Source: Acidobacteriota bacterium (GTDB lineage: Bacteria > Acidobacteriota > Terriglobia > Bryobacterales > Bryobacteraceae). From it: DNA of 22,744 bases. Shown here one piece after another: positions 4,596-22,702 of this stretch. A program made the translations under genes and the position numbers. Under the pieces are notes generated by a model. It was not told the origin of the DNA. It saw nothing but the letters and a program-made list of their open reading frames with translations, and did no database searches. The stretch is from the NCBI GenBank assembly GCA_026394095.1, contig JAPKYY010000157.1, forward strand, positions 1 to 22,744, written 5' to 3'. Position 1 is the stretch's first letter. Every line of letters begins with the position of its first letter.

Positions 4596-4622
4596 ATGCA
4601 ACTCTGCTCAACAGATAAGTAA
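4596..4622 (+). CDS. possible leader peptide of eight residues
   Basis: An ATG at 4596 lies six bases after GGAGGA (4584-4589), the best Shine-Dalgarno in this part of the window. It opens a frame MQLCSTDK ending in TAA at 4620-4622. The stop codon lies inside the left arm of the inverted repeat at 4614-4656, so ribosomes finishing the peptide would cover that arm. This geometry would suit an attenuator or coupling device, but nothing shows that it is translated, and the peptide has no obvious amino-acid bias. Confidence 0.22.
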   Translation: MQLCSTDK

Positions 4623-4656
4623 CCTATTTGTAATCAGTTACGGCATGTTACTTATC
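4614..4656. promoter_or_regulatory. inverted and direct GTTAC repeats, probable operator
   Basis: GATAAGTAAC at 4614-4623 and GTTACTTATC at 4647-4656 form a perfect 10-base inverted repeat with a 23-base spacer. Inside, GTTAC at 4637-4641 repeats directly ten bases before GTTAC at 4647-4651. On the other strand a GTTAC (4619-4623) and a near copy ATTAC (4630-4634) are spaced about eleven bases. One helical turn between direct half-sites is the pattern bound by OmpR/PhoB-type winged helices, and the next gene encodes such a domain, so autoregulation is an attractive inference. A weak RNA stem is the alternative. Confidence 0.45.
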
Positions 4657-4710
4657 AATTTTGCCTTCAAACTGAATGTCGTTGCTGTTATCTTTGTCTC
4701 TAGCTCAAAC

Positions 4711-6843
4711 ATGGGGCAGCCAGCCACTCAGCTTCAGCCCGCGCCCAAGCCGGGTTCCCGGGTTGGAGTTTTCGAGTTTGCTGCCGCTTCCGGCTCCCTA
4801 AAACGCAATGGCCTCCCCGTCCGCCTTCAGGATCAACCCGCCCGCCTGCTTTCCGTCCTGCTTGAGAAGTCCGGCCAACTGGTAACCCGTGACGAACTCC
4901 GCCTCCGCATCTGGCCATCTGACACTTTTGTTCAGTTCGATGCCAGCCTCAATACCGCCATCGGCAAGGTTCGCTATGCCCTTCGCGACGAAGCCGACAA
5001 CCCCGTCTTTATCGAGACCGTCCCGCGTCAGGGCTACCGCTTTATCGCCCCCGTCCAGTTCGATACCCTGCAACCTCCTGCTAAATCGCAAAAAACAAAG
5101 ACCTTGGCCTTGGCAGCACTCGTTCTGCTCGGAGTTGCCCTTTGGCAGTTCTGGCCCCGCTTCCAGACAAGCTCTCCCGCCCCTGCCGTTCGCCTGGCCA
5201 TTGCATTGCCACCCGATACCCACCTGGCAACCTACTTCGGCAAATCGGTCGCCATCACCAGCGACGGACAAACCGCCGCCTTCATCGGTCAAACCGGAGA
5301 AGAAAACTCGCGGATCTGGCTGCGCAACCTCAACCGAAACCAAAGTACCTCCGTGCCAGGCTCCGAAGGGGCCCGCTACGTTGAGTTTTCTCCCGACGGC
5401 AAATCTATACTCTTTGTCCAAGATGACAACCTCAAGCTCGCCCCCTCCCCCGATCTCCCGATTCGTACTCTGGCCCGCATCGGAAAAAATATTCCCCATA
5501 GTGCAGTCTGGAGCAAAGACGGCTTTATTTACTATGTGGCCCCCGACAAGGCCTACCCTGCGTCTCTCTGGCGAGTCTCTCCTGCATCAGCTCAACCCGA
5601 GTTGATGCTCACCAACACGCAGCCTTCCCCAGCGCCAGAATACTTTCTGCCTGTTTGCCAGCTCAAGGACGGCAGGCTTCTCATTTCTGTCTTTCGCTTC
5701 ATGGAAAGAACCATCGAAGTTTTCGATCCAGTGCGCCGCACTCGCACTCCCCTCCACTTTCCTGGCTCCGGCGGTTTTCTCACCCCTTCCAACTGGCTTA
5801 CCTTTCACGAGGGAATTCAAATCAGGGCCATCCGCGCCTCTCTTGATCCCATTCGTAGCTCCGGTTCCTCCTTTGTCATCCTCGATGGCGTAATGCGTGC
5901 CGGCTGGAGTGGTGGCAACTTTGCAGCTTCAGAAACGGGCACGCTCGTCTATGCCCCACAACCCCGCCTGCTTGGGGATCGCCAACTCGTCTGGGTAGAT
6001 ACAACAGGCAAGGAGTCCGCCCTTGTCATTCCTCCCGGGCCATACGAAGTTGGCGAGATCAGCCCCGACGGCAAGCATGTACTTCTGTACAAATACAAAG
6101 CTGAAGACCAGCGCTGGTCACTCAACGCCGTCCCTCTGGATGGCGGCCCCTGGATCGAAATCTATCGCGGTTCAAAACATAACCCTTCCGGTATTTGGAT
6201 CGATGCTGGAAAATCGGTTCTCTTCACTGCCGATGACACCCATCTGGTCCGCCGCCAGGTCTTCCCCCTCGGTCCGGTTCAGGATGGCACCTCAAACGTT
6301 ACCCTGCGTCAGACTCCGATCAGTCTCGACACCCGGCGGAATGAGGTCCTCTTTACTGAAGGCTACCGGCCAGCCACAATCGCCTCAGTGCATAAACTTT
6401 CGCTAGTTGGCGGCAGCCTTCCCGAAAAAATGCTCGATGCCGGACTTTTTCCCACGCTCAGCCCCGATGGCAATTGGCTCGCTATGGTTCAACCAGGCGG
6501 AGTTGCCGTCCTTCGCTACCCACTGCAACCGGGAGACAAAGGAATCTACATTGCCCCCGGCACGGCTCCCTTGTGGAGTCTCGACGGCCGTCGTATTTAC
6601 TTCCGTCAGAACAAAAAATTCTTAACCGCCGAATTTTCCACCCTCGGCAAGCCAGGCTTCACCAATTTGCAAACCTGCTTTGAGAGCGCTTATGCGCCTG
6701 CCGATAACTGGAATCGGGGCTATCAGATGCACCCCGACGGCAAGCGTTTCCTCTTCGTCAAACCCGATTTCCAGACCGAAGAGGCTCGCTCCCTGAATGT
6801 GATCCTCAACTGGTTCTCTGAATTTCCCCAGGCAGATCGTTAA
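4711..6843 (+). CDS. membrane-anchored winged-helix (CadC/OmpR-type) regulator with TolB-like propeller
   Basis: The ATG at 4711 gives 710 residues. The frame is open further upstream, but that stretch has no domain and would bury the control repeats. An OmpR/CadC-type winged helix spans about 12-112, including the recognition segment SLNTAIGKVRYALRD and the wing RQGYRFIAPV. A single membrane helix lies at about 131-149 (TLALAALVLLGVALWQFWP). The rest is periplasmic, with WD40/PD40-like blades of the SPDGKxxLFV type that form a TolB-like propeller. This fits a one-component sensor like CadC, in which a periplasmic domain controls a cytoplasmic DNA-binding head. Such fusions are abundant in Acidobacteriota. 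The ligand is unknown. Its stop overlaps that of the convergent adenosyltransferase gene. No ribosome binding site is evident before 4711; ATG 4645 is an alternative that would add a hydrophobic N-terminus. Confidence 0.88.
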   Translation: MGQPATQLQPAPKPGSRVGVFEFAAASGSLKRNGLPVRLQDQPARLLSVLLEKSGQLVTRDELRLRIWPSDTFVQFDASLNTAIGKVRYALRDEADNPVFIETVPRQGYRFIAPVQFDTLQPPAKSQKTKTLALAALVLLGVALWQFWPRFQTSSPAPAVRLAIALPPDTHLATYFGKSVAITSDGQTAAFIGQTGEENSRIWLRNLNRNQSTSVPGSEGARYVEFSPDGKSILFVQDDNLKLAPSPDLPIRTLARIGKNIPHSAVWSKDGFIYYVAPDKAYPASLWRVSPASAQPELMLTNTQPSPAPEYFLPVCQLKDGRLLISVFRFMERTIEVFDPVRRTRTPLHFPGSGGFLTPSNWLTFHEGIQIRAIRASLDPIRSSGSSFVILDGVMRAGWSGGNFAASETGTLVYAPQPRLLGDRQLVWVDTTGKESALVIPPGPYEVGEISPDGKHVLLYKYKAEDQRWSLNAVPLDGGPWIEIYRGSKHNPSGIWIDAGKSVLFTADDTHLVRRQVFPLGPVQDGTSNVTLRQTPISLDTRRNEVLFTEGYRPATIASVHKLSLVGGSLPEKMLDAGLFPTLSPDGNWLAMVQPGGVAVLRYPLQPGDKGIYIAPGTAPLWSLDGRRIYFRQNKKFLTAEFSTLGKPGFTNLQTCFESAYAPADNWNRGYQMHPDGKRFLFVKPDFQTEEARSLNVILNWFSEFPQADR

Positions 6844-7442
6844 CGCGCACCCTTGTTCGGCTGCCAGAGCGCTTCTGCAACGCCAAGCGCCTGATTCACC
6901 CACCGGCTCCACACAAACATCGCATCGCTCAAACGGTTCAGATACAGCATCGCCTCAAGCGGAATTTCCTCATTGTGGCTCAACGTTACCAGTGATCGCT
7001 CTGCTCTGCGGCAAATGGTTCTGCAGACATGCAATTCCGCGCAAATCCGGGTCCCGCCAGGCAGCACGAAGCTGCGCAGTGGGGACAGGCTGCCGTTATA
7101 CAGATCAATCTCCCGTTCCAGTTGGTCAATGGTCTCTTTGGTAATTCTGGGCTGGTTGGGGTGCAGGTCCTGAGGCATTGTCGCTAGAACACTGCCGAGA
7201 TTGAAGAGCTCATGCTGGATCCGTTCAAAGATCAGCTCCAGCTCTACAAGCTTGTGATCTCCCGCTGAAATGCGAACGAGCCCAACAAATGAGTTGAGCT
7301 CGTCGACAGTACCAAATACTTCAATGCGCTGTGCATCTTTCGATACACGCTGCCCACCAACCAGGCCCGTCTCACCTTGATCTCCGGTTTTTGTATAAAT
7401 CCGGTTTAATGCGAGACGGGGTTCGTGGAAGGCTTCACTCAT
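6840..7442 (-). CDS. cob(I)alamin adenosyltransferase, PduO type
   Basis: A 200-residue protein of normal family length. It transfers the adenosyl group of ATP to cob(I)alamin to make adenosylcobalamin in the cytoplasm. The ATP-binding N-terminus reads IYTKTGDQGETGLVGGQRV at about 14-32, followed by RIEVFGTVDELNS. The conserved helices include CRRAERSLVTL and LNRLSDAMFVWSRW near the C-terminus. The gene lies 15 bases downstream of the OmpA-family gene and is probably the last gene of that transcript. It supplies the cofactor for adenosylcobalamin-dependent mutases, and a B12-binding mutase subunit lies 3.5 kb away on the other strand. The stop codon shares TTAA with the convergent regulator gene. 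Confidence 0.95.
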   Translation of the reverse strand: MSEAFHEPRLALNRIYTKTGDQGETGLVGGQRVSKDAQRIEVFGTVDELNSFVGLVRISAGDHKLVELELIFERIQHELFNLGSVLATMPQDLHPNQPRITKETIDQLEREIDLYNGSLSPLRSFVLPGGTRICAELHVCRTICRRAERSLVTLSHNEEIPLEAMLYLNRLSDAMFVWSRWVNQALGVAEALWQPNKGAR

Positions 7443-7457
7443 AATCTCCAGAGTAGA

Positions 7458-9431
7458 TTACTTCGGGCAGCCTTTGGATTGAATTTCCGACACAGGTGCG
7501 TCTTTAATTCCCGCAATGCCATTCGGCATCGGGCCACTCTTCGGCACCAGCCAGACTTCAACACGACGGTTGCGGGCATTGCCGTCCTTCGCGTTGATCT
7601 TGCCGCTTGCGCGCTCCTTAACCGTTGCTTCGCAAAGCGAGGTCTTGAAGGCTGAGAGCTGTTCAGCGCCAACGAAGGCTACCTTGATGCGGCTGCGGTC
7701 GAGCTTCTTGCAAGGCTCGGTGCCACCGCTCAATACTGCAGCTACCTGCAATACGCGCTCTTCGTCGAGCTGACGCGTCTTCTTGGCCTTGGCGTCGCGC
7801 ACCTTGATGTTCTTCTCGACTGCGTCGAAATGACCAACAAGCAGCACGTCAAAGTCGCCCATCGATGCGGCCCGTTCAAAGGCCTGGTCGAGGATGCGCT
7901 TTCCGCAGTTGTTGACACGGGCATTGCCCTTGCCAAACACTACGTCATCCAGCTGCATCGGCTGCGGGCGGGGAGGTGCAGGAGCTGCAATCGGTGCCGG
8001 TGCCGGGGGTGCCATGATGCTTCCACCACCGCCAGGAGGCGTCTTCTTGCCAATTACCTTGCCACTCTGATCTACAACCGTTACATCGACGTCCACCTTG
8101 CGGGACGGGCCACCGGGCTGCAGAATAATTCCGTCCGTAGACAGGATCACCGAGCCATCAGTGTTACCCGGCTTCAGCAATACCTTCTCGGTAACGGTCA
8201 TGCCGTCAGCAGAAACCTTCGCGTTCGGGCCGGGCTTGGCCGGGGCCAGCTTGCCTTCGCTCGTGTGGTAAATCACGCTAACTTCTTCGCCGGCCGCAGG
8301 GCCGTCATAGCTGATCACCGAGGTGATGCGTGAGGAGCCGTTGTAGTTCAAAGTTGCAGGATCCATCGAGACGCTTACCAGCTCGATCTTCGGCTGCTTT
8401 ACAACCAAAGCCGCAGTGCGTTCCGTTGCCGGCACAGGGAACTTCTTCAGGAAGTTCTTCGTCTTGCGGTCGATCACCTTCGTCGTATCCGCTTCTACTA
8501 CTGCCTTGATTGCGTGCTCGCCGGCCGTTAGACCCTTGATTGCAAGCATCGAATCGCCAACTGCCGGCGCACCGTCAACCGTCCACTTGTACTTCGGCGT
8601 AACGCCAAGGCAGTTGTTGGTTACTGGCAACTGATAGCTTGCGCCTTCGGTAAGCCAGATTGTCTTGGTCGAAGGTTCAATCGAACCCACCCGGAATTCA
8701 CATACCGGACCCTGGTCGATCGCTCCAAGATAGAAAGTCACACCACCAGTGGTCTGTACCGAGTTCATAGGGGCAGTGCGCGTGTAGGCAATCGCACCGG
8801 CCGGAGCCTGACCCTTGATTCCAAAGCTCGGCGAAGCGGTCGAAAAGCCACGAACGTCAAAGCGAAGACCAATGCGATCGGTCAATTTCGCCTTCACACC
8901 CGCGCCATAGTTGAACGCCAGCTTGAATCCGGATTCCAGATTCGTCAACTGGCCCAGCGGAGTATTGACACCGTTGCCAACCTGCCGGCGTGCACCTTCG
9001 GTCACACCGAAGTAATCCATGCCAAAGCCCGTCGTCACAAAAGGACGAATGCGCGATTCACGCGGCTTGAAATGGAATACGGGATTGAAATGGAATTGGC
9101 GCAGGCGGGCGCCAAAGGAGTATTCATTCTGCGTGGCAGGAATGCGATAAACCGCATTCGCATTTCCATGCACCATCCCAGTCTGTTCAAGACTGATGTA
9201 GTTCCAAAAATTTTCTGTGATGCGGAAGCCCCCGACACCACCGTTGGTGATGTCCTGGTGAGGCGTGCTGTTTTGACGGTTTACAAAGTTACCGCCACCA
9301 AAGAGATTGATTTCGTATTTGTCTCCGCCACCAGTACTGGTTTTTTTGGCGGTAGAACTTGTTTGCGCAGAAGCGCTGAGACCGGCGAATAGCGCCAGTG
9401 TCATAGCAAGAGCGGAATATTTTATTTTCAT
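7458..9431 (-). CDS. OmpA-family outer-membrane protein with N-terminal barrel-like region
   Basis: A 657-residue exported protein with a clear signal peptide (residues 1-22, LALFAGLSASAQ). Residues about 35-240 alternate polar and aromatic or hydrophobic residues like an outer-membrane beta-barrel. About 250-460 reads as Ig-like beta-sandwich modules (for example YKWTVDGAPAVGD). A Gly/Pro/Ala-rich linker at about 470-495 precedes a C-terminal OmpA-like peptidoglycan-binding domain ending in NARNRRVEVWL. The usual HTDxxG-type motif is altered to GHFDAVEKN and four cysteines occur in or near this domain, so binding to peptidoglycan could differ from the textbook case. Likely role: anchoring the outer membrane to the wall, with an unknown surface function. 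It starts 29 bases after the end of the upstream propeller gene and is followed closely by the adenosyltransferase gene, with no functional tie evident. Confidence 0.85.
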   Translation of the reverse strand: MKIKYSALAMTLALFAGLSASAQTSSTAKKTSTGGGDKYEINLFGGGNFVNRQNSTPHQDITNGGVGGFRITENFWNYISLEQTGMVHGNANAVYRIPATQNEYSFGARLRQFHFNPVFHFKPRESRIRPFVTTGFGMDYFGVTEGARRQVGNGVNTPLGQLTNLESGFKLAFNYGAGVKAKLTDRIGLRFDVRGFSTASPSFGIKGQAPAGAIAYTRTAPMNSVQTTGGVTFYLGAIDQGPVCEFRVGSIEPSTKTIWLTEGASYQLPVTNNCLGVTPKYKWTVDGAPAVGDSMLAIKGLTAGEHAIKAVVEADTTKVIDRKTKNFLKKFPVPATERTAALVVKQPKIELVSVSMDPATLNYNGSSRITSVISYDGPAAGEEVSVIYHTSEGKLAPAKPGPNAKVSADGMTVTEKVLLKPGNTDGSVILSTDGIILQPGGPSRKVDVDVTVVDQSGKVIGKKTPPGGGGSIMAPPAPAPIAAPAPPRPQPMQLDDVVFGKGNARVNNCGKRILDQAFERAASMGDFDVLLVGHFDAVEKNIKVRDAKAKKTRQLDEERVLQVAAVLSGGTEPCKKLDRSRIKVAFVGAEQLSAFKTSLCEATVKERASGKINAKDGNARNRRVEVWLVPKSGPMPNGIAGIKDAPVSEIQSKGCPK

Positions 9432-11355: not shown

Positions 11356-11381
11356 ATATATTTGAAACCAAGAGGAGCTTG

Positions 11382-13079
11382 ATGCCTCTCCAAGACAAAA
11401 CGAACATTGCGGTGTTTGTCGATTACGACAACATCGAAATTGGAATTAAGACAACCCTGCGACGTGAATTTGACGTCTCGCTTTGTCTAGACTCATTGAA
11501 AGAGCGAGGCGATATTGTTGCGAAATTCGCCTACGCAAACTGGGGCCGCCAAGAAGGTGCGGCACGGCAGATGGCAGAGAATGCTGTACAAATGGTACAG
11601 CGGCTCCCCAGCCCGCGCGGAGACAAGAATGGGGGGGATATCAATCTTGCGCTTGACGCGCTTGAAATGGCCTTCACCCACACTCATGTCAACGCCTTCG
11701 CCATCATTAGTGGCGATAGCGATTTCATCCCCCTGGTCAACAAGCTGAAGGAATACGGCAAGACTGTTTACGTTGTCGGCGGCAAAGCCTTCACCTCAAA
11801 CATCCTGCAGAGCAACTGCCATGAGTTTGTAGCCTACGAAAACCTGCTTATGGATCGTGCGGCACGGCTGGATGGCGGCGAAAACGGACCTACCCTCGAG
11901 CGCCTGAAACAGGAACTCGCCGATTCCATGGCCCGCTCAGAGCAGAGCTCTGGTGGCAACCGTTGGGATCGCAGCCGCGATCGTGACCGTGGCATTCGCG
12001 ACCGCGAACGCGGTGACCGTGGTGATCGTGGCGGCCGGGATCGTGACCGCGATCGCGACCGTGAGCCAGAACGCATCGAAGAAGCACCCGTTATCGTCGA
12101 TCGCATCGACCGTCTGCCAGGCGAACGCCTCTCAGGCGAGCGTCTCTCCGTCGACCGTGTTGCTGCAGCACCTCCTGTCGAGCGCGCTGCGCCAATACCG
12201 GATCCTCGTGGGCCGATCATCGTTCCTCCTCATGTGCCTTCAGGCCGCGAGAGCCGTTGGGAACGCCGTGACCGTCGCCGTGATGAACGCGGTGGTGGCC
12301 GTGGGGATCAACCCCGGGCCGAGCGTCCGCCTCAGTCCAACGAGCCCCGCGTGACTCAGGAGATCACAGCCGCTCTGCCGCTGGTGGAGCGTTCGCTGCA
12401 AACCCTCGAACGCCGTGGTGTACAGGCTCAACTGGGCTTGCTCAAGAGCACGATGATGCAACTTGATCCCACCTTCCATGAACGTGGCTTCGGTGCATCC
12501 AGCTTCAGCGACTTCATCGACAAGCTGAACAAGGCTGAGCTGATCGAAGTGCAGGGCAGCGGTGGCAAGCTTACGATTGAACGCAAGGGTGGGGCAAATG
12601 CCCGGCCGTTGCCGGAACCGGATGAAGCATTGCCGCTCTTGCGCGACGCACTCGAAGCTCATCGCTACGAGATGGAAATGGGTGACGGCGTAGAGCCCGT
12701 CGAACTGGCCCAGTGGATCGCGACAGAACACGCGGGCTTCGATGCCCACAACTATGGTTTCCCCGGATTCCATGAGTTCATGGTCTTTGCCGAACGTCGT
12801 GGCGTCGTCAAGGTAAAGAAGGAAGACGAACGTGGGGTCGTGATTTATCTCGGCCGTGAGTTCTTCCCGCCTCCTGCACCCAAGGTCAAGAAGGAAGAGG
12901 AATTCTACAGCGAATACGATGAAGTGCAGCCTTATGTTGAAGGCCAGCCCAGCATCGTTGAGCCCAATCCTCCTCCAGTCAAACCGAAGAAGGCCGTTCG
13001 GGCTCGCAAGTCTACTTCGACTACAGCCAAGAAGACCTCCTCGGCAGCACCTCGCACCCGCCGAAAGAAGATCGACTAA
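11382..13079 (+). CDS. NYN-domain nuclease with Arg-Asp-rich linker and two LOTUS/OST-HTH domains
   Basis: A 565-residue protein. AGAGGAG (11371-11377) lies four bases before ATG 11382, which is better spaced than the in-frame TTG at 11379. Residues about 7-160 form a NYN (PIN-like, LabA/DUF88) domain with acidic metal-binding residues in FVDYDNIEIG, in INLALDALEMA and in ISGDSDFIPLV, expected to cut RNA with Mg or Mn. Residues 194-228 are almost pure Arg/Asp/Glu/Gly, with a second basic-acidic patch at about 288-316. Two winged-helix LOTUS/OST-HTH-like units follow at about 326-405 (SSFSDFIDKLNKAELIEVQ) and 412-500 (GFHEFMVFAERRGVVKV). The tail (about 525-565) is Lys/Arg/Ser/Thr-rich. NYN plus LOTUS is the layout of animal MARF1 RNases. 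RNA binding and cleavage are inferred; the target is unknown. It is 1 base upstream of the RidA gene. Confidence 0.9.
   Translation: MPLQDKTNIAVFVDYDNIEIGIKTTLRREFDVSLCLDSLKERGDIVAKFAYANWGRQEGAARQMAENAVQMVQRLPSPRGDKNGGDINLALDALEMAFTHTHVNAFAIISGDSDFIPLVNKLKEYGKTVYVVGGKAFTSNILQSNCHEFVAYENLLMDRAARLDGGENGPTLERLKQELADSMARSEQSSGGNRWDRSRDRDRGIRDRERGDRGDRGGRDRDRDRDREPERIEEAPVIVDRIDRLPGERLSGERLSVDRVAAAPPVERAAPIPDPRGPIIVPPHVPSGRESRWERRDRRRDERGGGRGDQPRAERPPQSNEPRVTQEITAALPLVERSLQTLERRGVQAQLGLLKSTMMQLDPTFHERGFGASSFSDFIDKLNKAELIEVQGSGGKLTIERKGGANARPLPEPDEALPLLRDALEAHRYEMEMGDGVEPVELAQWIATEHAGFDAHNYGFPGFHEFMVFAERRGVVKVKKEDERGVVIYLGREFFPPPAPKVKKEEEFYSEYDEVQPYVEGQPSIVEPNPPPVKPKKAVRARKSTSTTAKKTSSAAPRTRRKKID
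11961..12065 (+). repeat. degenerate DNA repeat encoding an Arg-Asp dipeptide tract
   Basis: Short units of the type cgtgaccg, cgcgaccg and gatcgtgacc recur through this stretch. They encode residues 194-228 of the NYN-LOTUS protein, an Arg-Asp/Arg-Glu/Gly tract with ten or so RD steps. Codon variation between units (cgt and cgc, gac and gat) suggests selection on the peptide rather than a fresh DNA expansion. Length variation between strains would be expected. Confidence 0.65.
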
Positions 13080-17190: not shown

Positions 17191-18081
17191 ATGTCGATCA
17201 AATATATGGTGATTGCTTTTATGGCCCTGGCGATGAGTGGAGCGGGGCCCGACCCGGCGCATGAGAAAGCGGTTCAGGAATACCGCACCAAAATGGAGAC
17301 AACGCTGAAGTCCGACACTGGCTGGCTCACGGTTGCGGGTCTGCATTGGCTCAAGCCAGGCGAAACCACCTTTGGCAGTGACCCCAAGAGCGGCTTCGTC
17401 CTGCCCGCCGGTAAAGCTGCGGCTAAAGGTGGAGTTTTCAAATTTGACGGCAAAAAGGTTGTGTTGAAGGTAGAGCCGTCGGCCGGCATTCTGGTAAACG
17501 GCAAGGCCTTTACCGAAGGTCCTCTGGTGGACGACGGAGCCGACAAGAAGGCCGACCTCGTAACCACAGGTGACCTGTCGATTATCATCATCGAGCGCGG
17601 CGGCAAGTTTGGGATTCGGCTCCGCGACAAGACCAGCAAATATCGAAAGGCATTCACCCACCGCAGTTGGTACCCGGTAAAGGCGGATTACAACATCAAG
17701 GGCAAATTCTTACCCTATGCTGTTGCCAAAAAGCTGCGCGTACCAACGGTGATCGAAGGTGTGATCGAGGAGCACGAGAGCCCCGGAGAAATTGAATTTC
17801 AGCTGGCCGGCGCGACACATCGGGCGCAGGTTTTGAAGGCCGGGGAAGGCCAGTTGTGGCTCATCTTCAGGGACCGTTCGAGTGGCAAGGCAACCTATCC
17901 AGCGGGCCGCTTCCTGTACGGAGATCTGGCCAAAGACGGCACTGTAAGCTTCGACTTCAACAAAGCCTACAACCCCCCCTGCGCCTACACGCCCTTCGCC
18001 ACCTGCCCCCTGCCGCCGCGCCAGAATTCACTCAAAGTAGCCGTAGAGGCTGGCGAGCTGACTTATCACCTTGAGCCATAG
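17191..18081 (+). CDS. DUF1684 family secreted protein
   Basis: A 296-residue protein with a hydrophobic leader (residues 1-18). It carries the family hallmark near the C-terminus: the glycine-rich GKATYPAGRFLYGDL, then FDFNKAYNPPCAYTPFATCPLPPRQN with two cysteines, then a short tail. A WLTVAGLHWLKPGETTFGSD segment near the front is also typical. The family is widespread in bacteria and its biochemical role is not established to my knowledge, so no reaction is assigned. Family length is matched, with no sign of damage. No strong ribosome binding site is seen (GAGAG at about 17170 is far away). The AT-rich 45-base gap includes TATAAAAAT-like sequence that may be its -10 region. It stands alone downstream of the divergent lactonase. 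Confidence 0.88.
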   Translation: MSIKYMVIAFMALAMSGAGPDPAHEKAVQEYRTKMETTLKSDTGWLTVAGLHWLKPGETTFGSDPKSGFVLPAGKAAAKGGVFKFDGKKVVLKVEPSAGILVNGKAFTEGPLVDDGADKKADLVTTGDLSIIIIERGGKFGIRLRDKTSKYRKAFTHRSWYPVKADYNIKGKFLPYAVAKKLRVPTVIEGVIEEHESPGEIEFQLAGATHRAQVLKAGEGQLWLIFRDRSSGKATYPAGRFLYGDLAKDGTVSFDFNKAYNPPCAYTPFATCPLPPRQNSLKVAVEAGELTYHLEP

Positions 18082-18472
18082 ATCGAGGCTCATGGTTTCC
18101 TCAGCGTTGGCACGCAAGGCGGAGCTTAGCCTCTAGTTTAGTAGCTTGGTTGGTCTTCGTGGTTTAAGAAGAGCTCGGATGTAGCGGTGCAGCCAAGGCT
18201 GATTCAGTTGCTCTTGTTTTGCGCGCGCGACCGGAAGAGACCTACCCCCTGGTTCGGGCTGCAAATGAAAAGCTCCGGTGTAACGTGGTCAACTCAAAGC
18301 GCAAGTTCGTTCGGCAGTTGATTGAATATCTGTTCCCGGCCCCCAAAAGCAACCAAACACTCATTGGTATTCTGAAGACGCAAGCGCCGCAAAATCTGAG
18401 GCGGAGCACAGGAAACTGGCTACAGGAGAATGGCCGCAAAGCTTAGATTCCTACTGTTAAAGCTGCCCCCGC
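18082..18472. other. 391-base stretch without a recognisable gene
   Basis: Nothing firm is seen. A frame open from 18168 to TAG 18446 (from TTG 18219, 75 residues, basic, for example VNSKRKFVRQLIEYLF) has no family resemblance, no ribosome binding site and codon use unlike its neighbours. A 12-base CAGCCAAGGCTG inverted repeat (18190-18201) and GAGGCT/AGCCTC arms (18086-18091 and 18129-18134) are too weak to call a terminator. The promoter of the downstream repair operon should lie here, and the region may also hold a small RNA or gene remnant. Confidence 0.5.
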
Positions 18473-19102
18473 ATGCACGCCGACCCTTACTACACCGCCC
18501 TCGCCACCGCCTTCGTCCGTGGCCGCCTGGCTAACCCAGGCGCCACTATCGAAGATGGCCTAGTGGCCGGCCTGCGCCTCCACAAATTCAAGAACGACAC
18601 TCTTCTCCCCCGCGTCCAGCGTGTGCTCGGAATCCTCCACGGGCTCTCCCCGGAAAGCCTCCTCGATGTCGGCAGCGGACGCGGCGCCTTCCTCTGGCCA
18701 CTCCTCGACACTTTCCCCAACCTCACCGTCACCTCCATCGACACAAGCGAACAAAGAGTCAACGACATCAACGCCGTCCGCACCGGCGGAATCTCCCGGC
18801 TCACCGCCCTACAGATGGACGCCGAGCGCACCACCCTTCCCGCAAAATCCTTCGACGTCGTAACCCTGCTTGAAGTGCTCGAGCACATGCCCAACCCGGC
18901 AGCAGCTCTAAGCAACGCAGTCTCTCTCGCCCGGCGCTTTGTTATCTTGAGCGTGCCCTCCGTACCCGACGACAATCCGGAACACATACACCTCTTCACG
19001 CCCGATCAAATCACCGCGATGGCCACCGCAGCCGGCAGCCACCGCACCACAATCGAGCATGTGCTGAACCACAGAATCGCCATCCTGCGCGTCGAAGCCT
19101 AA
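18473..19102 (+). CDS. class I SAM-dependent methyltransferase, first gene of an RNA/DNA repair operon
   Basis: A 209-residue Rossmann-fold methyltransferase. A helical N-terminus (about 1-55) precedes motif I LLDVGSGRGAF (about 63-73), the acidic strand SIDTSEQRV, a MDAERTTLP motif, motif IV VVTLLEVLEHMPNP, and VILSVPSVPDDNPEHIHLFTP. The set Glu134-x-x-Glu137-His138 with a later His171/His173 resembles the metal-binding ExxEH...H of Hen1 RNA 2'-O-methyltransferases. However, EVLEH also occurs in UbiG-like and other small-molecule enzymes, so this is not diagnostic. It lies four bases before a ligase gene that is itself fused by stop-start overlap to HD-Pnk, which argues for a nucleic-acid or end-modifying role. 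No ribosome binding site precedes ATG 18473. The substrate is unproven. Confidence 0.85.
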   Translation: MHADPYYTALATAFVRGRLANPGATIEDGLVAGLRLHKFKNDTLLPRVQRVLGILHGLSPESLLDVGSGRGAFLWPLLDTFPNLTVTSIDTSEQRVNDINAVRTGGISRLTALQMDAERTTLPAKSFDVVTLLEVLEHMPNPAAALSNAVSLARRFVILSVPSVPDDNPEHIHLFTPDQITAMATAAGSHRTTIEHVLNHRIAILRVEA

Positions 19103-19106
19103 ACCC

Positions 19107-19799
19107 ATGCGCCCCATCGTCAAATACCCTAGGACCCCACACATCACCGGCTCCCATCTGCAGCCGGGCGATGAAGATCTGCTATCGGTTGCCATGGAAT
19201 CTCTACATGGCCTCCCCCTGGTGGTTGAAGAAAAACTCGACGGCTCAAACTGCGGCATCAGCTTCGACCCTGAGGGCAACCTGCTACTCCAAAGCCGCGG
19301 CCATATCCTCACTGGAGGCCCGCGAGAACGCCAGTTCGATCTCTTCAAACGCTGGGCCAGCCACCACGTCCTCTGGTTGCGTCAAAGCCTCGCTACCCGC
19401 TACATCATGTACGGCGAGTGGCTCTTCGCCCGCCACACCATCCCCTACGATTCACTCCCTCACTACTTCCTCGAATTCGACATCCTCGACCGCGAAGCGG
19501 GAGAATTCCTCTCAACCGAACGACGGCAGCGCCTGCTCGCGGGCGGGCCAGTCCTCTCCGTCCCAGTCCTGACAGCAGGCACAGACCTCAACATTGCAAA
19601 GCATCTCGGCCAATCCACCTGCTCCACCCGCGAAGCCATGGAAGGCCTCTACCTCAAGCACGAAGAAAACGGCCAGGTCCTCGGCCGTTACAAGTACGTC
19701 CAACCGGCCTTCCTCCAAACCGTCGAAGCCTCAGGCGAACACTGGATGGACCGCCCCATCGAAGCAAACACGCTGCGCCCGGGAGTAAATCTCTTTTGA
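19107..19799 (+). CDS. ATP-dependent RNA/polynucleotide ligase, partner of HD-Pnk
   Basis: A 230-residue adenylyltransferase. Motif I is EEKLDGSN, with Lys43 as the residue that takes AMP from ATP. Motif III-like YGEWLFA comes next, then FLEFDILDR, motif IV EGLYLKH (about 178-184) and motif V in GRYKYV (about 193-198). It joins a 5'-phosphate end to a 3'-OH end through an AMP-capped intermediate. It is much shorter than T4 Rnl2 (334 residues) and has no visible C-terminal specificity domain, so it is close to a bare catalytic core. RNA or DNA preference cannot be told from sequence; the KxDG plus Asn pattern and context favour RNA. ATG 19107 follows the methyltransferase stop by four bases, and its TGA overlaps the ATG of the next gene. 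Confidence 0.92.
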   Translation: MRPIVKYPRTPHITGSHLQPGDEDLLSVAMESLHGLPLVVEEKLDGSNCGISFDPEGNLLLQSRGHILTGGPRERQFDLFKRWASHHVLWLRQSLATRYIMYGEWLFARHTIPYDSLPHYFLEFDILDREAGEFLSTERRQRLLAGGPVLSVPVLTAGTDLNIAKHLGQSTCSTREAMEGLYLKHEENGQVLGRYKYVQPAFLQTVEASGEHWMDRPIEANTLRPGVNLF

Positions 19800-20941
19800 T
19801 GAAGCTACTCCCCTGTCCACTTCCATCCGCGCAACACGACTGGCCCGCCCTCACCCGTCAATTCGACTGGATCCGCGCGATGAAAGATTGCCCGCAAGAT
19901 CCCATCCATCATGCCGAGGGCGATGTCTGGATTCACGTCAACCTGGTCTGCGAGGCCCTCCTTCAATTGCCAGAATGGCAAAGCCTCCCAGAGGCCCAAC
20001 GAGAAATCGTCTACGCCGCAGCCCTCCTCCACGACGTCTCAAAGCCTGCCTGCACCAGAGTCGAAGATGGCCGCATCACCGCACGCGGCCATTCCCAACA
20101 AGGTGCCATCCAGGCCCGCCGCATCCTCTGGGAACACGGTGCAGACATACAGGCAAGAGAACAAGTCTGTGCCCTCGTGCGCTACCACCAGATTCCCTTC
20201 TACCTGATCGAAAGGCCCGATGCCCAACGCATGGCCCTGCGAATCAGCCAGCAAACCCGCTGTGGTCACCTGGCGATCTTGGCCAAAGCCGACGCCCTTG
20301 GCCGCATCTGCCAGGATCAGCAAGGTCTCCTGCTCAAGATCGGCCTCTTCGAGGAACTCTGCCGCGAGCAAGCCTGCCTCAACCAGGCCTGGAAATTCCC
20401 CTCACCACTCAGCCGCTTTGAATACTTCCGTCGGGAAGGCCGGGATCCCAGCTACCATGTCCACGAAACCCCGAGCTTTGAAGTCATCCTGATGGCAGGC
20501 TTGCCCGGCTCAGGCAAAGACACCTGGCTTGCCCAACATGCCCCATCCTTGCCGGTGATCTCCCTCGACGACATTCGCGAAGAACTCGGTGCACCTCCAA
20601 CCGGCAATCAGGGTGTAGTCATCCAGGCCGCCAAAGAACGCGCCCGCACTTACCTCCGCACCCGCACCAGCTTCGCCTGGAACGCCACAAACCTGACCAG
20701 AGACATCCGCACTCAGCTAATAGACCTCTTCACCGATTACCACGCACGAGTCAAAATCATCCACATCGAAGCCCCGGCTCACTCCCTATTCCACAGGGTC
20801 GACAAAAGAGAGCGCCAAGTCCCCCACCCAGCCATCAAGCGAATGCTCGAACGCTGGGACATCCCAGATCCAACCGAAGCCCCGGTCGTCGAGTGGTGGC
20901 TCAATAAAGACAGCTTCGAGCTGCAAGCCGGCTTCAGCTAA
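19799..20941 (+). CDS. HD-Pnk: HD-domain 2',3'-phosphoesterase fused to 5'-OH polynucleotide kinase
   Basis: A 380-residue two-domain end-healing enzyme. ATG 19799 overlaps the ligase TGA (TGATG), so translation is coupled. The HD domain (about 25-190) has an early His (HHAEGDVWIHVNLV), the doublet His78-Asp79 in LLHDVSKP, GHSQQGA, VRYHQIP and a late Asp in AKADALGR, a full metal-binding set. The kinase domain (about 225-375) has the P-loop GLPGSGKDTW with Lys240, a catalytic Asp in SLDDIREEL, an AWNATN segment and an Arg-rich lid HRVDKRERQVP. The Runella slithyformis enzyme of this architecture phosphorylates 5'-OH ends and removes 3'-phosphate or 2',3'-cyclic phosphate, and its homologues are often beside a ligase gene. 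This product should prepare broken ends for the ligase encoded upstream. The stop overlaps that of the convergent gene. Confidence 0.93.
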   Translation: MKLLPCPLPSAQHDWPALTRQFDWIRAMKDCPQDPIHHAEGDVWIHVNLVCEALLQLPEWQSLPEAQREIVYAAALLHDVSKPACTRVEDGRITARGHSQQGAIQARRILWEHGADIQAREQVCALVRYHQIPFYLIERPDAQRMALRISQQTRCGHLAILAKADALGRICQDQQGLLLKIGLFEELCREQACLNQAWKFPSPLSRFEYFRREGRDPSYHVHETPSFEVILMAGLPGSGKDTWLAQHAPSLPVISLDDIREELGAPPTGNQGVVIQAAKERARTYLRTRTSFAWNATNLTRDIRTQLIDLFTDYHARVKIIHIEAPAHSLFHRVDKRERQVPHPAIKRMLERWDIPDPTEAPVVEWWLNKDSFELQAGFS

Positions 20942-22326
20942 AGCTTCTTCGCAAAAGCCGAGTAATCCAGCCCGCCAAAGAACGACTCCTTCATACTCGC
21001 CGGCAGCGCATTCAATTCAGGCCGCTCCTCATATGCCGGGGCAAACCGTTGCACATCAATCCGCCCAAACCCGGCCTCTTCGAGGTAAAAGCAAAGCAGC
21101 GCCGGCGGCACCGGCCTGGTATGCGAAGGGTCCACATAAAAGTGCGTCGCAAAAATGGCGAGACACTCCGGATTCGGAGTCTCAAACACAATCACCCCAC
21201 CCGTCTTCAGCGCCACAGAACAAGCCTGCACCAGCCTCCACACTTCAGCCGGCGGCAGATGCTCAATCACCTGCGCACAAAAGATCCCGTCAAACGATCC
21301 CGGCCCCTCTTCAGCCAGATACTCAAACACATTCGCCCGCCGCGCCTCAAGCCCCTGCGCCTGCAACAGCGAAACATTCTCCTCATACAAATCCACCCCA
21401 ACACCAGCCACCCCGCGAGCCTTGAGCAAGCTCAAAAACTCGCCACGCCCGCATCCAATATCCAGCACCCGCTCGCAGCCCTCAAACCGCGAAACATAGC
21501 CTTCAAAGTGCTTCTGGATCTTCGGCGCATCCCCACGAAACTTGTTCGCAAAATGCACCCAGTCGATATCGATCGACGCATCCGAACTACCACCAGCCAC
21601 CACACTGGCCGGCTTCTGACGCACACTCCGGATCTCGGCATAGATGATCCGCTCATACTCCACACGAACCTTCTCCAGTTCATTCCAGAACCGCTGCTGC
21701 ATCGCGAAATTCGATCGCTCCAGCGCCCCCTCAAAATCCCTGTGTTGAGCCACAACCCGCTCCTCAAACCGCTGCTCCAGCACCGCCGTCCGCTGCGCAT
21801 AAGCTGCTTGCAAATCAGCCACAGCCCGCAGAAACTGCACCTCATTCCGGCCCAGCTTCTCTTCCCACTCCCGCCGCCACACCAGCCAGTTCGAACGAAT
21901 ATCCTTAAGCTCAGCCGTCTCCCGGCGAATCTCCTCCATCGGCGGCTCAAACTTCGGTGGAATCGTCTTCAGCGTCCGGTTGATCGAATTCAAACCCTCA
22001 AGCACCGAGTCAAGACTTCGCACCATCGCATAGTTGAAATCCACCTGATCCCGCACAAACCAGCCCAGGCTCCGCGCAATCGTCTGCTTCACGCCCTGGA
22101 TCAATCCATTCAGCAACCCACCCGGCCGCGGATTCACCCGCCCAATCGCCGCCACCTTTGCATTGGCCTGATCCCGTGCCTCCAGCACCGGCGTAAAGTC
22201 CGGCAACTCCAGCCCATGCCAGAGCCCGCTCGGATAACGAGCCATCACCCGCTCGCGAATCTCTCGAATCGCCAGCTCCAGCTCTTCCTCGTGCGTAAGT
22301 TGCCCCGGACTAGTCTTTTCGCTCAT
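20938..22326 (-). CDS. coiled-coil SAM-dependent methyltransferase of surface-polysaccharide type
   Basis: A 462-residue protein from ATG 22326. An upstream in-frame extension exists but is antisense-like to queF and lacks family features. The N-terminal part (about 1-130) contains an amphipathic segment GVKQTIARSLGWFVRDQVDFN, seen in proteins of O-antigen and capsule loci. A long coiled coil follows (about 145-250). The C-terminal methyltransferase has motif I VLDIGCGRGEFLSLL (about 285-299), acidic GVGVDLYEEN, FDGIFCAQVIEHLPP, VIVFETPNPECL and FYVDPSHTRPVPP. The last segment is typical of WbdD-like or O-antigen-associated methyltransferases. The polysaccharide role is inferred, because no glycosyltransferases lie in the window. 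It starts 17 bases inside the end of queF, so translation is coupled. The coding strand is G-rich, unlike the C-rich neighbouring plus-strand operon. Confidence 0.88.
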   Translation of the reverse strand: MSEKTSPGQLTHEEELELAIREIRERVMARYPSGLWHGLELPDFTPVLEARDQANAKVAAIGRVNPRPGGLLNGLIQGVKQTIARSLGWFVRDQVDFNYAMVRSLDSVLEGLNSINRTLKTIPPKFEPPMEEIRRETAELKDIRSNWLVWRREWEEKLGRNEVQFLRAVADLQAAYAQRTAVLEQRFEERVVAQHRDFEGALERSNFAMQQRFWNELEKVRVEYERIIYAEIRSVRQKPASVVAGGSSDASIDIDWVHFANKFRGDAPKIQKHFEGYVSRFEGCERVLDIGCGRGEFLSLLKARGVAGVGVDLYEENVSLLQAQGLEARRANVFEYLAEEGPGSFDGIFCAQVIEHLPPAEVWRLVQACSVALKTGGVIVFETPNPECLAIFATHFYVDPSHTRPVPPALLCFYLEEAGFGRIDVQRFAPAYEERPELNALPASMKESFFGGLDYSAFAKKL

Positions 22327-22702
22327 AACTCGCCGATATCTTCGAATAGATTCCACCCCGTGGCGTAAAGTCTCCCACCACCGTTGCCTTGCGCGGCTTC
22401 GTCGCCCGCACCACATCCTCAAGAATCCGGTTCACGATATTCTCTTGAAAAATCCCCAGATTCCGATAGGCCAGCAAATACATCTTGTAAGCCTTCAGCT
22501 CAAGACAATCCGCATCCGGCGTATAACGCACCGTCAGCGTCCCATGGTCCGGCAACCCGGTCTTCGGGCATACGCTCGTAAACTCAGGGCTCGAAATCTC
22601 AATCTCATAATCACGGCCAGGAAACTGGTTGGGCCAGGTCTCAATCTCAGGTAATTCCGCCTTCACACCGCTAGAGGCGTGATCGTCTGTGTATTGTTTC
22701 AT
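22310..22702 (-). CDS. queF: NADPH-dependent 7-cyano-7-deazaguanine (preQ0) reductase, short form
   Basis: A 130-residue unimodular QueF. It reduces the nitrile of preQ0 to preQ1 in the pathway to queuosine in tRNA. The catalytic pair is Cys45 in SVCPKTGLPDHG and Asp52; Cys forms the thioimide with substrate. The family signature ELKAYKMYLLAYRNLGIFQENIVNRI carries the conserved E-x-K-x-x-K-x-Y and RN-x-G pattern. Length is normal for the short, Bacillus-type form. ATG 22702 overlaps the stop of an upstream partial frame (ATGA), and the end overlaps the methyltransferase gene by 17 bases, so the three probably form one transcript. No other queuosine genes are visible here. Confidence 0.96.
   Translation of the reverse strand: MKQYTDDHASSGVKAELPEIETWPNQFPGRDYEIEISSPEFTSVCPKTGLPDHGTLTVRYTPDADCLELKAYKMYLLAYRNLGIFQENIVNRILEDVVRATKPRKATVVGDFTPRGGIYSKISASYERKD

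Follow-up and report, generated by a model that had tools for sequence, protein, structure and literature searches.

The contig JAPKYY010000157.1 from an Acidobacteriota bacterium (order Bryobacterales, family Bryobacteraceae), 22,744 nucleotides long and analysed whole as the window, encodes three adjoining proteins: a class I methyltransferase; an ATP-dependent RNA ligase; and HD-Pnk, which joins an HD domain to a polynucleotide kinase. The methyltransferase is a dedicated partner of the HD-Pnk/ligase pair, and very probably belongs to their repair pathway. More tentatively, at a confidence slightly short of even, the trio may be a further, independently assembled system for RNA repair with immunity, present in Acidobacteriota and Myxococcota. 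In this system a methyltransferase other than Hen1, dedicated to HD-Pnk and the RNA ligase, would 2'-O-methylate the 3' end before sealing.

Co-occurrence with HD-Pnk and the ligase

In a sample of 257 genomes from the window's order, HD-Pnk was found in 18 (threshold E 1e-20) and the methyltransferase in 13 (E 1e-15). All 13 methyltransferase genomes fall among the 18, and all 13 carry a close ligase. One-sided Fisher tests of the methyltransferase against HD-Pnk gave 3.4e-18 by genome and 1.5e-10 by genus, both uncorrected for kinship. The ligase search matched 25 of the 257 genomes: 14 at an identity of at least 61% over the best stretch, the next at 42%. (Overall, the G610 and G611 ligases are about 51% identical.) The methyltransferase is present in 13 of these 14 genomes. 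The five HD-Pnk genomes that lack it are G480, G481, G491, and G495, with ligases only 32–34% identical; and G627, which has no ligase match, one HD-Pnk piece interrupted by internal stops, and another, stop-free copy at about 42% identity.

The exception among the 14 is G555, whose close ligase is accompanied by neither the methyltransferase nor HD-Pnk. This orphan (L170, 2999–5427) is flanked by a SocA/Panacea antitoxin-like gene on one side and, on the other, by an unrelated class I methyltransferase, which begins 12 bases downstream of the ligase and is without the ExxEH motif considered below.

Across Acidobacteriota as a whole (396 genomes; HD-Pnk threshold E 1e-30), HD-Pnk was found in five genomes. 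The methyltransferase profile retrieved four full-length copies, every one in an HD-Pnk genome, along with one 58-residue fragment. The fifth HD-Pnk genome, G368, has neither a ligase nor a methyltransferase match. The fragment, an N-terminal piece in G009, looks like a decayed remnant, since it lies about 720 bases from an open reading frame resembling a transposase (by eye, without a family call) in a genome with no match to HD-Pnk or the ligase. Adjacent trios in G051 and G346 represent two families other than the window's; identities to the window proteins are 53–54% for the methyltransferase, 48–50% for the ligase, and 40–41% for HD-Pnk. Among 140 genomes of Myxococcota, the phylum of Sorangium, five encode HD-Pnk and two (G736 and G750) the methyltransferase, both as adjacent trios.

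In all, 18 genomes hold a methyltransferase recognisable over its whole length: the 13 in the order plus G051, G063, G346, G736, and G750. (The count includes G520, where the methyltransferase frame is broken.) Each of the 18 also holds HD-Pnk and the ligase, and no full-length methyltransferase without HD-Pnk and ligase was found in the genome samples searched. The methyltransferase gene adjoins the ligase gene in 16 of these genomes. In G610 it lies on a contig other than the ligase's, with other genes on both sides. In G063 each of the three genes is on a contig of its own and has other genes as neighbours; each also lies no more than about 3 kb from a contig end, which limits what the contigs say about true spacing. 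In 13 of the 14 linked loci examined outside the window, methyltransferase stop and ligase start share one or four bases, the exception being G051. (Twelve loci were called by script and G611 from open reading frame coordinates, with G520 left out; for G472 and G473 a later start candidate also exists.)

Recurrence of the trio in the same order, in other genera, families, and one other phylum, is more than chance. The preliminary description of this DNA had held the proposed link to depend on conservation beyond close relatives, and the methyltransferase does lie beside HD-Pnk and the ligase in several genera, in two other families as adjacent trios, and in a second phylum. Moreover, it co-occurs with them from a separate contig in G610 and G063, and such persistence away from its partners speaks against hitch-hiking.

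At the order thresholds, none of the three genes was found in the seven other genomes of the window's genus, and DNA similarity to the three same-genus genomes examined ends at window position 18068–18080. The trio therefore seems to be gained and lost as a block. Just ahead of it, no clear gene is seen at 18082–18472, a stretch that may mark the border of an insertion or replacement.

HD-Pnk also matches 20 plasmid records and one phage record, and 13 of these 21 loci were opened. No relative of the methyltransferase was seen near HD-Pnk in the 13 opened loci, and none of the plasmid or phage records encodes the methyltransferase at the thresholds used.

The trio and its conserved residues

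In the window, the three open reading frames lie on one strand at 18473–20941 and together encode 819 amino acids (Table 1). Their coordinates agree with the layout in the preliminary description: the ligase ATG at 19107 comes four bases past the methyltransferase stop, and the ligase stop TGA (19797–19799) shares one base with the HD-Pnk ATG at 19799, giving TGATG. The residues named there are likewise in place: K43 in the ligase; H78-D79 and K240 in HD-Pnk; and E134, E137, H138, H171, and H173 in the methyltransferase. The closest relative in a named record, L001, shares 65% identity in HD-Pnk, 70% in the methyltransferase, and 74% in the ligase.

Table 1. The three genes of the operon, by position in the window (aa, amino acids; SAM, S-adenosylmethionine)
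Feature	Position	Strand	Family and key residues
Class I SAM-dependent methyltransferase, 209 aa	18473..19102	+	Repair-linked family; invariant E134, E137, H138, N168-P169-E170-H171, H200
ATP-dependent RNA ligase, 230 aa	19107..19799	+	PF09414; motif I K43-x-D-G
HD-Pnk, 380 aa	19799..20941	+	N-terminal HD phosphoesterase (H46, H78-D79, K82, H98, D165), predicted
HD-Pnk kinase part	within 19799..20941	+	C-terminal 5'-OH polynucleotide kinase P-loop (G239-K240, D257, R260), predicted

By its Pfam match (RNA_ligase, 119.4 bits against a cut-off of 27), a KxDG motif I, and further conserved residues, the ligase is assigned to the ATP-dependent RNA ligase family PF09414. K43 sits in EEKLDG, and residues E42, K43, D45, G46, R64, and E104 are identical in all 29 aligned ligases, the window's included (three of 31 matched loci were dropped for short coverage).

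HD-Pnk combines an N-terminal HD domain (PF01966; 28.9 bits at 61–135) and a C-terminal P-loop kinase (AAA_33, PF13671; 83.9 bits at 229–354) in a single protein, both matches exceeding their cut-offs. Its kinase half resembles solved polynucleotide kinases weakly: 4gp7 (E 0.002), labelled 'Metallophosphoesterase' in the structure listing and presumably the Clostridium thermocellum Pnkp kinase; and 4xrp, Pnkp1 (E 0.27). Kinase residues G239, K240, D257, and R260 are identical in all 38 aligned sequences, as are K82 and D165 of the HD domain; H46, D79, and H98 are identical in 37, and H78 in 36.

Several genes lie near these enzymes here and elsewhere. On the opposite strand, downstream of the trio, the window encodes a second, larger class I methyltransferase protein (20938–22422), with QVIEH instead of ExxEH, and QueF of the queuosine pathway (22310–22702). 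Farther away, at 11379–13079, a protein contains NYN and OST-HTH/LOTUS domains; an open reading frame similar to it by eye is found in G517 about 1.8 kb from the trio (L089, 11275–12660). One trio copy (L084 in G451) is flanked by three RlaP (PF10127) nucleotidyltransferase genes at 602–2607 and 5136–6107, of which the third has an end that also matches an outer-membrane barrel model. RlaP is described, in an excerpt of PMC7824862, as acting together with RNA ligases. In Sorangium and its relatives (L002–L008, about 4600–9100), HD-Pnk and a distant RNA ligase are divergently oriented, and the same region holds an open reading frame with a GSRVYG...SDEDF nucleotidyltransferase-like motif, the L002 copy of which matched no Pfam family.

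Family placement of the methyltransferase

Pfam recognises generic methyltransferase domains in this protein (Methyltransf_23, 55.8 bits, above cut-off). Seventeen orthologs share 44 invariant columns, among them E134, E137, H138, N168, P169, E170, H171, and H200, together with an N-terminal block (G33, L34, H37, F39, K40, L45, and R47). The preliminary description had listed five candidate metal-site residues. Four stand, as E134, E137, H138, and H171 are identical in 17 of 17 sequences and align with the Hen1 quartet; H173 falls away, replaced by Q or R in three of 17.

The ExxEH motif plus downstream histidine of bacterial Hen1 is thus present. An hhalign comparison with seven bacterial Hen1 homologs (five annotated as Hen1) gave a probability of 98.2%, aligning E134, E137, and H138 with the Hen1 ExxEH and H171 with the second of the two histidines in HxDHRFEW. 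H171 presumably corresponds to His860. In plant HEN1, according to an excerpt of PMC10781085, Mg2+ is bound by such a quartet and by both ribose hydroxyls.

Compared with solved structures, the family profile gave 31 matches at E 0.01. At the top are 3bus (a methyltransferase, 2.5e-10), 6uv6 (D-glucose O-methyltransferase), and 3mgg. Next come 3jwi (5e-8) and 3jwg (8e-8), both labelled 'Methyltransferase type 12', followed by UbiG (2e-6) and plant HEN1 (7e-5). We take 3jwi and 3jwg to be bacterial Hen1; a piece of 3jwi retrieves proteins annotated as Hen1. The five Hen1 rows start at profile position 39–46, ahead of every other row (position 49 or later).

Three curated identities were considered and rejected: Hen1 (TIGR04074), 20.2 bits against a cut-off of 340, with only positions 270–380 of 462 matched; UbiG (TIGR01983), 38 bits against 102.95; and MftM (NF041255), 60.7 bits against 200. 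No curated NCBIfam model was reached among the best 25 of 31 matches. Size also speaks against Hen1: the methyltransferase has 209 residues, about 64 of them before motif I, and an annotated Hen1 coding sequence has 1389 bases (462 residues). The long part that precedes the methyltransferase domain of Hen1 has a ligase-activating role. An excerpt of PMC4411300 states that a part of Hen1 activates the ligase. Judged by its sequence, then, the methyltransferase is not a Hen1. The aligned quartet bears out part of the resemblance to Hen1 drawn in the preliminary description. In other respects the protein differs from Hen1: it scores below the Hen1 model, is shorter, and is no closer in sequence to Hen1 than to UbiG-like proteins.

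Mechanism, alternatives, and related systems

What might the methyltransferase do? COQ3 is, we presume, a relative of UbiG. According to an excerpt of PMC7615680, Mg2+ raises COQ3 activity about four-fold and ethylenediaminetetraacetic acid abolishes it; the authors of that work draw attention to the bidentate binding of metal by catechol O-methylases. This metal dependence and bidentate binding suggest, by analogy, a shared chemistry in which a metal holds a vicinal hydroxyl pair and one hydroxyl is O-methylated. The vicinal pair at hand during repair would be the 2',3'-diol of the healed 3' end, hence the proposal that 2'-O-methylation occurs there.

This suggests a model with three steps. 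After a cut by a ribotoxin-like nuclease, the HD domain of HD-Pnk would convert the 2',3'-cyclic phosphate at the break to a 2',3'-diol, and the P-loop kinase would phosphorylate the 5'-OH. Residues E134, E137, H138, and H171 of the methyltransferase would then hold a divalent metal chelating both hydroxyls of the 3' end, the 2'- and the 3'-OH, and SAM would supply the methyl group for the 2'-OH. Finally, the ligase would seal, leaving a 2'-O-methylated junction resistant to cleavage at the same place. The data show the gene order, the co-occurrence, and the conserved residues, the quartet among them; the activities, the RNA substrate, and the order of steps are predictions, with healing and sealing read from the protein families. 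We regard 2'-O-methylation of the 3' end by the methyltransferase, ahead of sealing, as an evenly balanced proposition, and we give equal weight to belief and doubt that the operon repairs RNA with protection using parts other than those of Pnkp-Hen1.

Several observations weigh against this reading. The HD site is substituted in G051 (L015; H46Q and H78E), in G346 (L017; H78R and D79N), and in G063 (L014; H98Q), and beyond the order no other Acidobacteriota genome in the sample has a full-length methyltransferase. Each of the three retains an unaltered methyltransferase quartet, and G051 and G346, the two represented in the ligase alignment, retain the ligase residues as well. It may be that these HD domains fail to heal 3' ends even though the methyltransferase is kept; if so, another enzyme would heal, or the ends there would already bear a 3'-OH. 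In G472 the HD-Pnk frame is broken near the C-terminus.

The methyltransferase itself adds to these difficulties. Scored singly against the family profile, seven Hen1 homologs gave 61–82, four UbiG-like proteins 76–88, and 12 other methyltransferases of the window's genome 34–86. Because these ranges overlap, profile scoring does not single out Hen1 over UbiG-like proteins or some of the generic methyltransferases. Of 22 other Methyltransf_23 matches in the window's genome, 12 had readable frames, and two of these 12 carry a similar quartet, so the motif alone proves little. The best NCBIfam match, below its cut-off, is the mycofactocin oligosaccharide methyltransferase MftM. AlphaFold models were poor (predicted local distance difference test scores of 54.5 and 48.4), and the fold list from the first of them held class I enzymes of many kinds. 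Finally, a close ligase and HD-Pnk occur without a nearby methyltransferase relative on six plasmids (L018, L020, L022, L024, L026, and L027), and in the myxococcal genome G733 without any methyltransferase match in the genome search. The methyltransferase is therefore an add-on to the healing-sealing pair, neither universal nor essential.

The same co-occurrence would fit a methyltransferase that serves the pathway at another target: close to the break, either a base or an internal ribose (in the anticodon loop of transfer RNA, for instance); a terminal phosphate; or chiefly the ligase, as its activator. The profile and fold lists include the transfer RNA enzymes METTL6 and the U34 methyltransferases (the model behind the fold list being weak), and the substituted HD sites would suit a role that does not need HD-made diols. 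The invariant ExxEH and H171 quartet, however, points to metal-assisted O-methylation of a vicinal diol, for which the 3' end would be the obvious candidate in this pathway. We consider another target unlikely, roughly a one-in-four prospect.

Repair of breaks in DNA or RNA/DNA hybrids, as suggested for Deinococcus HD-Pnk, with the methyltransferase in a DNA or signalling role, appears improbable. Runella HD-Pnk is said to act on DNA 3'-phosphates too. A title in the reference list of PMC9146567 connects HD-Pnk of D. radiodurans with its resistance to mitomycin C and ionizing radiation, a connection that makes a DNA substrate possible and so also counts against an RNA repair system. Set against this are the membership of the ligase in PF09414 (RNA_ligase), the three RlaP RNA-repair genes that flank the trio in G451, and the impossibility of 2'-OH chemistry on DNA ends. 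Least probable is that an unrelated small-molecule enzyme of UbiG, MftM, or sugar O-methyltransferase type sits in the operon by chance. Its best curated matches are indeed MftM and then UbiG, a D-glucose O-methyltransferase is among the top Protein Data Bank profile matches, and profile scores are on a par with those of UbiG-like proteins. Yet the protein stays below the cut-offs of the curated models listed, is confined within the order to HD-Pnk genomes (13 of 13), holds the same position in a second phylum, and is kept on a separate contig in two genomes, a distribution that hitch-hiking would not be expected to produce.

The 2'-O-methylation model has a precedent in bacterial Pnkp-Hen1, which likewise unites 5' kinase, 3' phosphoesterase, ligase, and a methyltransferase with the ExxEH...H quartet, and in which methylation during repair confers resistance to re-cutting (PMC4411300, excerpt). 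The trio operon, in contrast, contains no Pnkp: HD-Pnk would heal and a stand-alone PF09414 ligase would seal, and its methyltransferase, at 209 rather than 462 residues, is assigned outside Hen1. In the Pnkp1-Rnl-Hen1 system of Capnocytophaga gingivalis, healing, sealing, and methylating proteins are separate, as here. The Capnocytophaga hen1 gene lies far from its two partner genes (same excerpt of PMC4411300), recalling the methyltransferase of G063 and G610. That system, however, employs Hen1 and Pnkp1 where the trio has HD-Pnk and a short methyltransferase of another kind, and the trio genes overlap or are closely spaced in most genomes.

Operons of HD-Pnk and a putative ATP-dependent ligase, in Runella and Deinococcus, share the HD and kinase architecture beside a ligase; work on Runella reportedly described this pairing. 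They differ in the methyltransferase, a relative of which is absent from the 13 opened plasmid and phage loci. The O-methyltransferases UbiG/COQ3 and MftM have a similar class I domain in a different genomic setting. Among the results listed, literature searches turned up no paper that links a methyltransferase to HD-Pnk, but one may be mentioned in the work on Runella HD-Pnk or in a 2016 survey of RNA repair systems.

To our knowledge, Hen1-type enzymes are the only established protective methylases in bacterial RNA repair. If the 2'-O-methylation model holds, a second methylase family working with other healing and sealing enzymes would imply that junction protection has been selected in its own right. 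It would also indicate RNA as the substrate of HD-Pnk/ligase operons, a point so far unsettled. Moreover, with a compact system of three proteins, repair with immunity could be tested directly.

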